Source: Thermococcus sibiricus MM 739 | GTDB lineage: Archaea > Methanobacteriota_B > Thermococci > Thermococcales > Thermococcaceae | Assembly: GCF_000022545.1 (NCBI RefSeq) | Contig: NC_012883.1 | Span: forward strand, 186,001-250,000 | Direction: 5' to 3' | Length of the DNA: 64,000 nt | Shown: positions 3,891 through 13,786 of the stretch, in pieces | Numbering within the stretch: position 1 is the stretch's first letter | Layout of the letters: every line of letters starts with the position of its first letter | Notes under the pieces: model-generated | Database searches by the model: none | What the model was told of the DNA's origin: nothing | What the model saw: only the letters and a program-made list of their open reading frames with translations | Translations under genes and position numbers: made by a program

Positions 3891-4475
3891 ATGAAAGCAA
3901 GAGAGATAGCTCTGATAGGGTTGCTGTTAAGTTTATCACTTGTTCTTGAAGTCTCTCCACTTAAAGTTCCAACCCAGTGGGGAATGAGCATTGACTTGGT
4001 GGCTGTTCCGATGGTAATTATTTACGTTATCATGGGATTCTGGAGCAGTGTAACAGCTTTAATTTTGCTCTTTGTGGGGTTAAGTTTGGTATCGTCTGCT
4101 TCTTGGCTTGGGGCTAGTATGAAATTCTTTGCAACTTTGAGTTTAGTGTTAGGTCTTGAACTAGCTAAGAGGATAACAAAATTCGATTTTAAGAATTTCA
4201 ATGAGAAAAAGTTTGTGATCTTTGTAGTGCTCGCATATAGTATGGGCATTGCAATCAGAATTCCAGTCATGGTTATTATGAACTACTACTATGCTATACC
4301 TCTCTGGCTTGGTATTCCAAAAGAGCAGGTGATTCCAACTATTGAAGAGTGGTTCCATATTCCATTCTGGCTGGTAATAGGCATTCCAAATGCTATTCAA
4401 AGTGCTGTGGATGTTTTAGTGGGAGTTTTAGTCTCTTTACCGGTTATTAGGGCACTACCGCACATCCTTGAGTGA
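3891..4475 (+). CDS. ECF transporter S component, RibU-like
   Basis: The 194-residue integral membrane protein has about six hydrophobic segments. The N-terminal KAREIALIGLLLSLSLVLE is typical of energy-coupling-factor substrate-binding subunits. The later stretch IRIPVMVIMNYYYAIPLW matches the R..VM...NY...P pattern of RibU riboflavin-binding subunits, and the last helix is preceded by IPNAIQSAVD. I therefore favour riboflavin, but the substrate is inferred. No ECF ATPase or T subunit lies nearby, so it would use a shared module. The ribosome-binding site is GGTGGT. The 3' end overlaps the convergent gene by 21 bp. Confidence 0.8.
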   Translation: MKAREIALIGLLLSLSLVLEVSPLKVPTQWGMSIDLVAVPMVIIYVIMGFWSSVTALILLFVGLSLVSSASWLGASMKFFATLSLVLGLELAKRITKFDFKNFNEKKFVIFVVLAYSMGIAIRIPVMVIMNYYYAIPLWLGIPKEQVIPTIEEWFHIPFWLVIGIPNAIQSAVDVLVGVLVSLPVIRALPHILE

Positions 4476-5570
4476 CTTTTTCCATCTTTCTGCATATCCT
4501 TTAAAAATTTCATTTTTTGTTTTCTCATAGAGCCATTCTAGGAGCTGAATGTGGAGTTCATGGTATTTTCTCATTGCCTTTCCGTGGATATTTGAATACA
4601 AACTCCATCCCTCTTTATCAAAATCTGGAAGAGCTTTTGCGACGGAGATTGTTCCGTTATCAAATAATTCTTTGGCATAGGGATCCTTTGTGACTTCCCA
4701 GTAGTAGTAGAGGCCCTGTAATGCTATTATATGACCGTTCAGGACCAGCTCATTTGAGTTGTAACCATATTCTAGTATCCAAAGTCCATAGGGAGATTCT
4801 ACAACAAATCCTCCCTCTTTGTATGGGATTTGGAAAGAGTTTAGGAGTAGTTTTGCGGTTTTTAAGTACGTTTCGTTTTTTGTTATTTGATATGCTTTTG
4901 CGTATAATCCCGCACCCATTCCTTGAGCATAACCTGAAACCCAAGGGATGGAAGAATTCTCGAAATGGAAATAATTAAGGAACAGAGCATATTCGACCTC
5001 ATTTTTCTTCTTGACAACTATGACCTCTTTCAGTTCGTCTAAGATCCTAAGGACCTCCTTTGTATCTCCGTTTTTAAAGTATATATCGGCCCAGTGAAGG
5101 GCACTCACTGGATAAAGCACAAGACCCCTAAAATTGTAATGAACAAAGGGAATAGAGGTGTTAAGATCTCCTTTAGCAAAGAAGACCTTCTCATAGGGGC
5201 TTTTATTCCCAAATGTCATGGGATAAAAGCTCTTTAAAGGAGAGATGTACTTGGAGTAGTATTCATCATTGGCCCTTAAAGTTAAGTAGAGTATTTTTAT
5301 CTGTTCTCTACTTATGCTCTCTTCTCCTTTCCAAACCTTTGCAAAGATTTTTGTGGGATAAGATGATTCTATACTTGAAAATAGGAAAAGGACATTCGTG
5401 GTGCTTAGGAATTTAAGAAAATTATTTAAAACAACTCTTTCGTTCTCATTCAGAATGTCTTCTACATCTTTCGATTTTTCTAGTATGGTTCTCTTTGAAA
5501 GTTCAAAGCTTCCAAAATATGAAGTCATTAAAAGAAGGAAGATCAAGAGCAGAGAGTAGATTTTCTTCAT
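4455..5570 (-). CDS. Secreted D-glucuronyl C5-epimerase-like protein, copy 2
   Basis: The 371-residue protein has an N-terminal hydrophobic leader (KKIYSLLLIFLLLMTSYFGS). From about residue 150 it has the helical C5-epimerase C-terminal domain: IPWVSGYAQGMGAGLY, NELVLNGHIIALQGLYYYW, then YHELHIQLLEWLY. In animals this fold epimerises glucuronate in heparan sulfate; the archaeal substrate is unknown. The ATG at 5570 is chosen because GGGTGA overlaps the stop of the upstream paralog 5 bp away. It shares long tracts of identical DNA with that paralog, suggesting gene conversion. Confidence 0.85.
   Translation of the reverse strand: MKKIYSLLLIFLLLMTSYFGSFELSKRTILEKSKDVEDILNENERVVLNNFLKFLSTTNVLFLFSSIESSYPTKIFAKVWKGEESISREQIKILYLTLRANDEYYSKYISPLKSFYPMTFGNKSPYEKVFFAKGDLNTSIPFVHYNFRGLVLYPVSALHWADIYFKNGDTKEVLRILDELKEVIVVKKKNEVEYALFLNYFHFENSSIPWVSGYAQGMGAGLYAKAYQITKNETYLKTAKLLLNSFQIPYKEGGFVVESPYGLWILEYGYNSNELVLNGHIIALQGLYYYWEVTKDPYAKELFDNGTISVAKALPDFDKEGWSLYSNIHGKAMRKYHELHIQLLEWLYEKTKNEIFKGYAERWKKSLKDVR
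4687..5108 (-). repeat. Repeat block, matches 5829-6250
   Basis: Within the two epimerase-like genes, identical tracts occur at a constant offset of 1142 bp: 4687-4763 (77 bp), 4840-4994 (155 bp) and 5077-5108 (32 bp). The intervening stretches are clearly diverged. Identity at synonymous positions suggests recent conversion rather than selection alone. Confidence 0.85.
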
Positions 5571-5575
5571 TGGAT

Positions 5576-7114
5576 TCACCCGAGATCTTCGGGTGGTAAT
5601 CCCCTGTAGATAAGGTAGTTGTTCCATTTTCTTGCATAATTGAAGAAATATTCATCGCCAGTAACATCATATAGCCATTTTAAGAGCTGGATATGGAGTC
5701 TATGGTAGAATTCACTTGCATCCCCGTGAATGTTTGAATACTTGCTCCATGAGTTGGTGTCAAAAATTGGGAGTGTTTTTTTCGTGCTCTCAACACCAGC
5801 TTGAAAGAGTTGCCATGCTTTTTCATCTTTTGTGACTTCCCAGTAGTAGTAGAGGCCCTGTAATGCTATTATATGACCGTTCAGGACCAGCTCATTTGAG
5901 TTGTAGTTGTATTCAAGATACCATGGGCCGTATTTTGTATTTGAAACAAATCCATTCTCTTTCAAAGATAAATCAAAGGAATTTAGGAGTAGTTTTGCGG
6001 TTTTTAAGTACGTTTCGTTTTTTGTTATTTGATATGCTTTTGCGTATAATCCCGCACCCATTCCTTGAGCATAACCTGAAACCCAAGGGATGGAAGAATT
6101 CTCGAAATGGAAATAATTAAGGAACAGAGCATATTCCTCGCTGTTGTAGTTTCCGAAATACATGAATTCTTGGAGATTATTTAGAAATTGTAATGCTATT
6201 TCATAATTTCCTCGTTTGAAGTATATATCGGCCCAGTGAAGGGCACTCACAGGATAATAACTTAAACCCCTACCTCTATAATATAAGAAAGGCAGTGAGG
6301 TATTAAGATCACCCTTAATTTTTATGGGGGAATAATAGGGGGTATTTTCAGAAAATATCACTACGGAAAAGTCTTTCTGAGGGGATGGATATTTGGAATA
6401 ATATTCGTTATTGGCTTTTAAAGTTAAATTAAATGCCTTTATATCAAGCATGCTGAGACCTTTCCACTTTGCGAGTTCTCCAAAGGCCCTTATCGCATAG
6501 AAAGAATCTCTATATGAACGAAGATATGTGATGTTGCCTGTTTTGGAATATTTGCTTAGGAATTCTTCTCTAATTTTTTTATTTATTTTGAGTTCTTCTT
6601 TGATTTTGTTTGGTACCTCTCCGTATACTTTTCGGATTTCTTTTACTAGGACCTCTTCGGAGACCATAAATACTTCATCCGGAATTTTTTCCCCTATTAT
6701 ACCGGACTTCTCAGTTTCAGGTTTAATTCTAAGAGTTTCATCTTCGTAGTACAGTTCTAGTGTTATCAGTATTCTCTCTCCATATGGAAATTTAAGGTTA
6801 ATCAGGTCTCTAGCACTCACTTTCTTTCCATACCAGTCCTTACCATTGGCATTTACAACAAATGTTACTTCTACTTCTCCATTATTCTCACTAACATATC
6901 CAACAAAATTTGGTTTGTTGAAGTCGTTTATAGTCTTGTTTCCAATTTTTACCTGAATCTCTGAAAGTTCAAAAGCAGCGCTTTTTTCATCTATTTGGAC
7001 ATAGATCTCGACTTTGGAGCCTGTAGGGGAGGATGAAATAGAATCTTCAACTGTGATACATCCAAGTGAAAGACTCACCAAAATAAGAACTCCTATTGTT
7101 TTAATTAACTTCAT
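5576..7114 (-). CDS. C5-epimerase-like lipoprotein, copy 1
   Basis: The 512-residue protein has a lipoprotein signal with lipobox LSLGC (Cys about residue 19), so it is probably lipid-anchored outside the cell. Residues 25-130 form a beta-rich domain not present in the shorter copy. From about 210 it has the C5-epimerase C-terminal helical domain with SGYAQGMGAGLYAKAYQ, NELVLNGHIIALQG and YHRLHIQLLKWLY. Copy 2 follows after 5 bp, so the pair is one operon. A role in trimming or modifying uronate-containing exopolysaccharide or glycan is plausible but unproven. The start has GTGAGGAGAT directly upstream. Confidence 0.85.
   Translation of the reverse strand: MKLIKTIGVLILVSLSLGCITVEDSISSSPTGSKVEIYVQIDEKSAAFELSEIQVKIGNKTINDFNKPNFVGYVSENNGEVEVTFVVNANGKDWYGKKVSARDLINLKFPYGERILITLELYYEDETLRIKPETEKSGIIGEKIPDEVFMVSEEVLVKEIRKVYGEVPNKIKEELKINKKIREEFLSKYSKTGNITYLRSYRDSFYAIRAFGELAKWKGLSMLDIKAFNLTLKANNEYYSKYPSPQKDFSVVIFSENTPYYSPIKIKGDLNTSLPFLYYRGRGLSYYPVSALHWADIYFKRGNYEIALQFLNNLQEFMYFGNYNSEEYALFLNYFHFENSSIPWVSGYAQGMGAGLYAKAYQITKNETYLKTAKLLLNSFDLSLKENGFVSNTKYGPWYLEYNYNSNELVLNGHIIALQGLYYYWEVTKDEKAWQLFQAGVESTKKTLPIFDTNSWSKYSNIHGDASEFYHRLHIQLLKWLYDVTGDEYFFNYARKWNNYLIYRGLPPEDLG
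5829..6250 (-). repeat. Repeat block, matches 4687-5108
   Basis: This is the partner of the block in the downstream gene: identical tracts at 5829-5905, 5982-6136 and 6219-6250, separated by diverged sequence of the same length. Confidence 0.85.
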
Positions 7115-7147: not shown

Positions 7148-7174
7148 TATAAATTTTTCCGGCAAAAATTTATA
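7148..7174. promoter_or_regulatory. Perfect 11-bp inverted repeat in the divergent promoter
   Basis: The arms TATAAATTTTT (7148-7158) and AAAAATTTATA (7164-7174) are separated by CCGGC. Each arm carries a TATA box, so the element can serve both the lipoprotein gene (start 7114) and the ThiR-like gene (start 7209). The symmetry and position fit an operator for the adjacent HTH regulator. A second plus-strand TATA candidate lies at 7179-7190. Confidence 0.55.
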
Positions 7175-7208
7175 ACTGAGTTTTAAAAATAAATATTTGG
7201 TGATTAAT

Positions 7209-8105
7209 GTGAAAACCCCCTGTGAGTTTTGGGCGGAAGAAGTGATGCCAAATTTAAGGGCCGATATAGCCCGTATTTTGTATTCTAAAGGATTAACTCA
7301 GGCAAAAATAGCAGAACATTTGGGTATCACACAAGCGATGGTTAGCAAATATCTAACTGGAAAATATAAACGGCTTGGGGGAGATCTTAGTAAGGAAATT
7401 CAAATAGTTGCCCAAGAGGTGGCCAGCCTTATTCTTTATGGTGCAAAAAAAGAGGATATAATACGGTTTTTGAACAAGAGGTTCTTTGAAATGCTCAGAA
7501 GTGGGATTTTATGTAAGGGTTATTTAGAGTATATTGAAAGTGATGATGAATCGCTTTGCAGTGACCTCTTTAGTGGAGAACCATCTCGTACACAAATTCT
7601 GGAAGAGTTGAATTTAGCTTTAGGAGGACTCCTTAGAAATAAAGGGTTTCTAAAGCTTATCCCGGAGATTAGAAGTAACTTTGCCTATTCTCTTCCGGAT
7701 CCAAAAGAAAAGGAGGACGTAGCAGCTGTTCCAGGGAGAATAACTCATGTAAAAGATAAAGCTTATGCATTACCTCCAGAATTTGGGGCTAGCGAACACA
7801 TGGCAGGAGTTTTAATAGCACTCTCTAATGTATTTCCCGGTATCAGGAGCGTCTTGAATATAAAATACGACGAGAATATATTTAGAGCCCTGAAAAAAGC
7901 CGGTTTCAAATTCGGAGTTATAGAAAAAAGTGAAAGAAGTGAAGATGAAACTGTCAGGCTTATTGTAGAGGAATTTAAAAAGAAAGGCTCATTAGATGCC
8001 GTTGTTGACAGAGGAGGTTTTGGAATAGAGCCTTGTGTATATATATTCGGAAAAAACCCAATAGAGGTCGTTGAAAAAGTCAAAAGGTTGGAGAGCTTTC
8101 TATGA
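7209..8105 (+). CDS. HTH-ThiN regulator, ThiR-like
   Basis: The 298-residue protein has an N-terminal helix-turn-helix (LTQAKIAEHLGITQAMVSKYL, about residues 29-50) and a C-terminal ThiN domain (about 135-295; SNFAYSLPDPKEKEDVAAVPGRI, then PPEFGASEHMA). ThiN is the thiamine-phosphate synthase domain of many archaea. As an HTH fusion without ThiD it is known as the thiamine regulator ThiR, with ThiN sensing the ligand. I chose the GTG at 7209 because GGTGATT precedes it by about 4 bases and the family typically starts near a Pro-Cys-Glu; TTG 7197 lies in the ribosome-binding site. It overlaps the next gene by ATGA. Confidence 0.85.
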   Translation: MKTPCEFWAEEVMPNLRADIARILYSKGLTQAKIAEHLGITQAMVSKYLTGKYKRLGGDLSKEIQIVAQEVASLILYGAKKEDIIRFLNKRFFEMLRSGILCKGYLEYIESDDESLCSDLFSGEPSRTQILEELNLALGGLLRNKGFLKLIPEIRSNFAYSLPDPKEKEDVAAVPGRITHVKDKAYALPPEFGASEHMAGVLIALSNVFPGIRSVLNIKYDENIFRALKKAGFKFGVIEKSERSEDETVRLIVEEFKKKGSLDAVVDRGGFGIEPCVYIFGKNPIEVVEKVKRLESFL

Positions 8106-13758: not shown

Positions 13759-13786
13759 AAATAAGGAGTCAGATTACTCCTTATTT
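13759..13786 (-). other. Intercistronic stem-loop between acdA and acdB
   Basis: The perfect 11-bp arms AAATAAGGAGT (13759-13769) and ACTCCTTATTT (13776-13786) surround a 6-base loop. The stem includes the last codons and stop of acdA and ends about 20 bases before acdB. It could set the subunit ratio, guide mRNA processing or protect an mRNA end. It has no U-tract of terminator type after it. Confidence 0.6.

Follow-up and report, generated by a model that had tools for sequence, protein, structure and literature searches.

The ThiR-like regulator encoded near the start of the 64,000-nucleotide stretch of the Thermococcus sibiricus MM 739 genome analysed here (the window) probably acts through a short dyad, TTTATAACTGAGTTTTAAA at positions 7169-7187, repressing its own gene and the thiamine-salvage operon, with the conspicuous 27-bp palindrome that this dyad overlaps being two core promoters; from sequence comparison we put the probability of this reading at about 0.85. 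The likely operator thus moves from a striking local palindrome to a short conserved dyad, which would provide a family-wide set of predicted sites, at thiR, cytX, tenA, thiM, thi4 and thiC, for direct binding tests. The elements of the locus are as follows.

7148..7174, no strand: 27-bp inverted repeat with perfect 11-bp arms around CCGGC, read as two outward BRE/TATA elements
7148..7158, minus strand: left arm, plausibly the BRE/TATA element of the divergent C5-epimerase-like gene (minus strand reads AAAAATTTATA; basis: the sequence and the missing arm in genome G074)
7164..7174, plus strand: right arm, plausibly the BRE/TATA element of thiR, with TTTATA at 7169-7174
7169..7187, plus strand: probable ThiR operator TTTATAACTGAGTTTTAAA, a dyad centred at 7178 with 8 of 9 pairs complementary and the core AACTGAGTT at 7174-7182
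7209..8105, plus strand: thiR, 298 aa, N-terminal HTH (PF01381) and C-terminal ThiN (PF10120) by Pfam
5576..7114, minus strand: divergent C5-epimerase-like gene (PF06662), with the left arm as its putative promoter and a signal- or lipoprotein-like N-terminus by eye
4455..5627, minus strand: second C5-epimerase-like paralogue (PF06662), next downstream on that strand
3891..4475, plus strand: ECF S-component-like membrane protein, below curated cut-offs

The regulator and its neighbours

A sequence-only reading of this locus had called the protein beside the palindrome a ThiR-like HTH-ThiN regulator, and Pfam profiles bear this out: the HTH domain matches PF01381 (E 2.4e-05, 24.7 bits against a cut-off of 23) and residues 134-292 match the ThiN family PF10120 (E 1.7e-49), with no match of the protein to a kinase family. 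The solved structures 2php and 2pb9 are related to the thiR product by sequence, and its most likely start is GTG 7209, since close homologues begin there (MKTPC or VKTPC). The joining of a ThiN domain to an HTH suggests a thiamine phosphate-sensing repressor.

The divergent gene at 5576..7114 is sugar-epimerase-like, its Pfam match being to the D-glucuronyl C5-epimerase C-terminus, and has no visible thiamine link. Over about 50 residues (ALFLNYFHFENSSIPWVSGYAQGMG...) it is identical to its paralogue (4455-7114 together), and their antisense ORFs are nearly identical too; elsewhere the two have diverged, a pattern that hints at recent gene conversion between them. The gene for the ECF S-component-like protein lies directly upstream of thiR in G074, and in T. 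sibiricus the C5-epimerase pair intervenes; no AACYNRGTT core (the conserved centre of the short dyad) occurs near its start, the three cores of the window standing at 7174, 24179 and 39152, with the full dyad only at 7169-7187.

Two probable back-to-back promoters in the inverted repeat

The palindrome is exactly as the sequence-only reading had described it, with arms TATAAATTTTT (7148-7158) and AAAAATTTATA (7164-7174) around CCGGC (7159-7163). Taken alone it is only mildly unusual: two perfect inverted repeats in the window have arms of 11 bp or more and loops no longer than 12, where 20 sequences simulated under a first-order Markov model held 0.3 on average, six of them containing one. 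The second such repeat, at 13759-13786 (AAATAAGGAGT / ACTCCTTATTT, loop of 6), sits where a short gap separates two ORFs on the minus strand, which have ATP-grasp and succinyl-CoA-ligase-like domains.

The suggestion that each arm contains a TATA box of one of two divergent promoters agrees well with what the arms look like, and it is plausible that each is a BRE/TATA element read outward. By coordinates, the end of TTTATA lies 34 bp from GTG 7209 on one side and 33 bp from ATG 7114 on the other, so that each BRE/TATA-like element stands a few tens of base pairs before a start codon, and each of the 11 thiR upstream regions read from the same genus contains TTTATAA. To what extent two such elements would resemble each other was gauged on 38 promoter-like 11-mers from the 60 called genes of the window: among their 703 pairs, 26% agree at 8 or more of the 11 bases and 0.4% at all 11, where the 26% figure leans high and the likeness is partly built in, the 11-mers having been picked by their fit to the TATA consensus AAANNTTTATA. 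A near-palindrome is therefore to be expected fairly often where two promoters of this kind abut.

The alternative, put forward in the sequence-only reading, is that the 27-bp palindrome is itself the operator of the ThiR-like protein, such that one bound dimer shuts both promoters. A perfect dyad between the two genes does invite this idea, as does its partial retention in the genus: with the loop fixed at 5, the number of pairs kept in 11 same-genus upstream regions is 11 in G000 and G082, 10 in G081, 9 in G075, G077, G078 and G080, 8 in G076, G079 and G084, and 4 in G074, which leaves eight relatives having the divergent gene with 8-10 of the 11 pairs at the same spacing. Such retention counts in favour of some constraint, for which two promoters need only the letters of their BRE/TATA elements. 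Exact arms beside thiR are confined to the closest relatives, 3 of the 12 same-genus genomes with a ThiR gene (G000, G082 and G083, the last known through the pattern search alone, with the exact arms next to a thiR fragment), and at up to two mismatches the palindrome was found beside thiR in no other genus among the 94 genomes searched. In G074 the left arm has gone along with the divergent gene, which is absent from the locus (no C5-epimerase match in the 1.5 kb upstream of thiR), and TTTATAACTTGGTTTTAAA is kept.

Against an operator role of the palindrome stands its lack of copies. Across the whole genome (1,845,800 bp, one contig), 7148-7174 is the sole match at up to three mismatches and the one place where both arms fall within 12 bp, so that neither search yields a degenerate copy, be it at the thiamine operon or elsewhere; the genome has 16 copies of a single arm AAAAATTTATA and 13 of the reversed word, and the exact arm is thus not a commonly repeated element. 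A search that left the 5-bp centre free and allowed the arms up to two mismatches gave 30 places in 28 of the 94 genomes, against 2 for the reversed control; three of these are the thiR locus itself (G000, G082, G083), and none of the remaining 27 is at thiR. The 12 outside places that we read comprise nine of a tRNA-promoter type, one thermosome promoter region, one place in G064 and one in G077. A string like AATAAATTTTTCGCGGAAAGATTTATA accounts for 20 of the 30 places (18 identical), and eight of the nine fetched precede a tRNA-Ser(CGA) gene, the ninth (L220) being a promoter without a called tRNA; these loci (L215-L222, L224) show a conserved tRNA-Ser(CGA) promoter of genus g4 in which AATAAATTTTTCGCGGAAAGATTTATA forms a near-palindrome of the same form. 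Five further places hold one string, and the one fetched (L223) precedes a thermosome gene. In G064 the exact arms occur away from thiR, in what by eye is a short intergenic place near a DNA-methyltransferase-like ORF.

The sequence-only reading had proposed looking for the palindrome at thiamine genes. None was found there in the T. sibiricus genome at up to three mismatches, which is the sequence outcome that this reading had itself named as counting against it. One copy at a thiamine gene does exist elsewhere: in G077 a two-mismatch version lies between thiC on the minus strand and a pdxS-like gene on the plus strand (L226:1533-1559). This copy favours an operator, yet it also reads as two outward-facing TATA boxes placed back to back, and among 51 thiC upstream regions only G077 reaches 20 of the 22 arm letters, followed by G053 with 18 and the rest with 16 or fewer. 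Immediately ahead of thiC, the same G077 gap also has ATAACCTGGTGATAA, which differs from the short core by one base. With no copy at the thiamine operon and exact conservation limited to the closest relatives, we consider it quite improbable that the palindrome is the ThiR operator.

It is more improbable still that the palindrome serves another regulator, one controlling the C5-epimerase-like gene. The divergent layout and a dyad partly kept in the genus would fit such a role; against it, the palindrome has no second copy in the genome, and in G088 (genus g5), where the C5-epimerase-like gene is likewise divergent and near thiR, the two TATA boxes are by eye wider apart and no palindrome occurs at up to two mismatches. 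Most likely, then, the 27-bp palindrome consists of a pair of core promoters set back to back, which by coincidence have the same sequence in a small clade, and it serves as a warning that archaeal TATA boxes standing back to back can mimic operators.

A short dyad at thiR and other thiamine genes

That this intergenic gap contains a ThiR operator is probably correct all the same, in the form of the short dyad at 7169-7187, which overlaps the right arm of the palindrome, starting inside the TATA box and running toward the start site. By eye, ATAACC-N-GGTTTTA is common to the thiR upstream regions, where it overlaps or follows the TATA box. Of 87 thiR orthologues, 61 have the strict core AACYNRGTT within 150 bp upstream; 200 shuffles gave a mean of 1.72 and a maximum of 6, and the reversed motif occurred at 4 of the 87. 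The regulator has a match in 93 genomes (none in G085), from which G010, G016, G049, G059, G083 and G091 were left out because theirs was truncated or weak; four loci from a separate contig scan for orthologues are likewise outside the counts. By genus the core is found in 10 of 11 regions in g1, 3 of 3 in g2, 0 of 8 in g3, which is probably Pyrococcus, 43 of 58 in g4, 4 of 6 in g5 and 1 of 1 in g6. The 26 regions lacking it thus include all eight of g3, where by eye thiR closely follows another gene, and close variants of the core were seen by eye in G079, G086, G092 and G064.

Conservation extends beyond the core, which was itself imposed by the search: counting only letters outside it, A stands at -6 in all 61 thiR sites and at +7 in 51 of them, and T at -5 in 60, at +5 in 54 and at +6 in all 61. 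The bases flanking the centre (C..G in 38, T..A in 10, T..G in 8 and C..A in 5) tend to covary, with a Fisher p of 0.0007 that is overstated by the relatedness and non-independence of the sequences. In 22 of the 58 g4 regions, by an uncontrolled count, a TTTAA box is also followed immediately by a similar dyad.

In T. sibiricus itself, TATAACYNRGTTTTA has one exact occurrence, at thiR, and five at one mismatch. One of these, TATAACTTGGTTTTT, an imperfect dyad, ends 56 bp before the start codon of cytX and heads the operon cytX-tenA-thiM-thiE-thiW-thiDN; a second TATA-like box follows it, so that at cytX the promoter could be downstream of the site. We took the other four (L095-L098) to be chance matches, three lying inside ORFs and one preceding a small ORF, HTH-like by eye, and then a methyltransferase-like ORF. 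At up to two mismatches the 15-mer gives 93 matches on both strands, below the 134 of the reversed control, and we make no claim at that level. Two targets named in the sequence-only reading, thiC and thi4, are absent from this genome: no thiC was found, and there is no full-length Thi4, the 12 partial matches to the Thi4 model (about 33-68 profile positions) being taken as Rossmann-type look-alikes.

Other genomes provide these and further targets. The exact 14-mer ATAACYNRGTTTTA is found 108 times in the 94 genomes and its reversed control 13 times. Of the 108 matches 51 are at thiR and 57 elsewhere; the surroundings of all 57 were inspected, and 11 of them precede thiamine operons led by cytX, tenA or thiM (G002, G004, G005, G007, G010, G011, G074, G076, G077, G079 and G084). 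For the other 46, the adjoining proteins match none of ten query proteins from the T. sibiricus genome. Eight of them, all in g4, place the 14-mer 116-125 bases before an Lrp/AsnC-like gene (L135, L138, L144, L150, L151, L158, L159 and L169; one Pfam-checked), which may mean either that these genes share a genuine target or that a chance match has been conserved.

Among 20 thiDN stretches that we picked from a larger number, thi4 is preceded by AACTNAGTT in 10 of the 11 g4 thi4-thiDN stretches, and in the loci measured this sequence ends 34 bp from the thi4 ATG (Thi4 was translated in three loci and confirmed by Pfam in one). The core precedes cytX in 3 of 4 g5 and 2 of 3 g1 stretches, is lacking in the promoters of both g3 stretches (G012, G006), and occurs five more times elsewhere within the stretches. 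Upstream of thiC, for which 51 regions were read from the 62 genomes with a match, it is found in 32, against a shuffle mean of 1.13, a maximum of 4 in 200 shuffles and 0 of 51 for the reversed motif (g1 3 of 8, g2 1 of 2, g3 1 of 6, g4 26 of 31, g5 0 of 3, g6 1 of 1), and missing from 19. In g4, thi4 and thiC are often divergent, with one AAAACTNAGTTTT dyad between two TATA-like boxes (L189-L199, L227-L256); the thi4 and thiC counts are not independent, because the same dyad then stands between both starts (compare L195 with G014).

These data bear directly on another account of 7169-7187, namely that it is merely an extended TATA or initiation sequence. The overlap of the dyad with the TATA box in this genus speaks for it; the persistence of the core in g4, where the TATA-like box (TTTAA) sits further upstream, its recurrence at cytX, tenA, thiM, thi4 and thiC, and the 108 matches against 13 make it quite improbable.

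On the preferred reading, a ThiR dimer with thiamine phosphate bound by its ThiN domain would sit on 7169-7187 and block TBP, TFB or RNA polymerase, giving autorepression of thiR, and through the near-copy at cytX ThiR would also repress the thiamine-salvage operon cytX-tenA-thiM-thiE-thiW-thiDN. The manner of the block may differ between genera: in this genus the site overlaps the thiR TATA box and binding would obstruct TBP/TFB, and in g4, where it lies between the TATA-like box and the start codon, binding would obstruct the polymerase.

At the T. sibiricus thiR locus the conserved element lies on the regulator's side only. In other genomes, the proposal that one site controls two divergent promoters seems true of the short dyad where it stands between thi4 and thiC. 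At the T. sibiricus locus a different coupling can be imagined, in which the two TATA boxes are so close that only one start complex can form at a time and ThiR bound at 7169-7187 diverts transcription to the C5-epimerase-like gene; we hold this to be improbable, and if true it would tie vitamin status to a surface-sugar enzyme in a small clade.

Comparison with known promoters and ThiR systems

Pyrococcus furiosus belongs to the same order of archaea as T. sibiricus. The archaeal ThiR family of HTH-ThiN regulators was reportedly described in 2017 by Rodionov et al. (J Bacteriol 199:e00743-16), and Hwang et al. (J Bacteriol 199:e00810-16) are said to have treated the same family in that year.

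Like the archaeal BRE/TATA core promoter, both arms of the palindrome match AAANNTTTATA; the difference is that the palindrome pairs two identical elements back to back, 5 bp apart. Like archaeal ThiR regulators, T. sibiricus ThiR has an N-terminal HTH, a C-terminal ThiN domain and predicted sites before thiamine genes, and the short dyad supplies a palindromic site shared by thiamine genes, here at thiR and cytX and also in relatives.

In a published account, ThiR (PF0601) of P. furiosus is a predicted regulator of thiamin transport, with Rodionov et al. 2017 cited for the thiamine operon (PMC10746257). The assignment of ThiR to thiamin transport and the thiamine operon there parallels what we propose for T. 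sibiricus; the difference is that the T. sibiricus site also stands before thiR, where the eight g3 genomes lack the strict core. With a ThiR regulon already predicted in Pyrococcus, the 27-bp palindrome is no new element and the T. sibiricus site extends a known kind.
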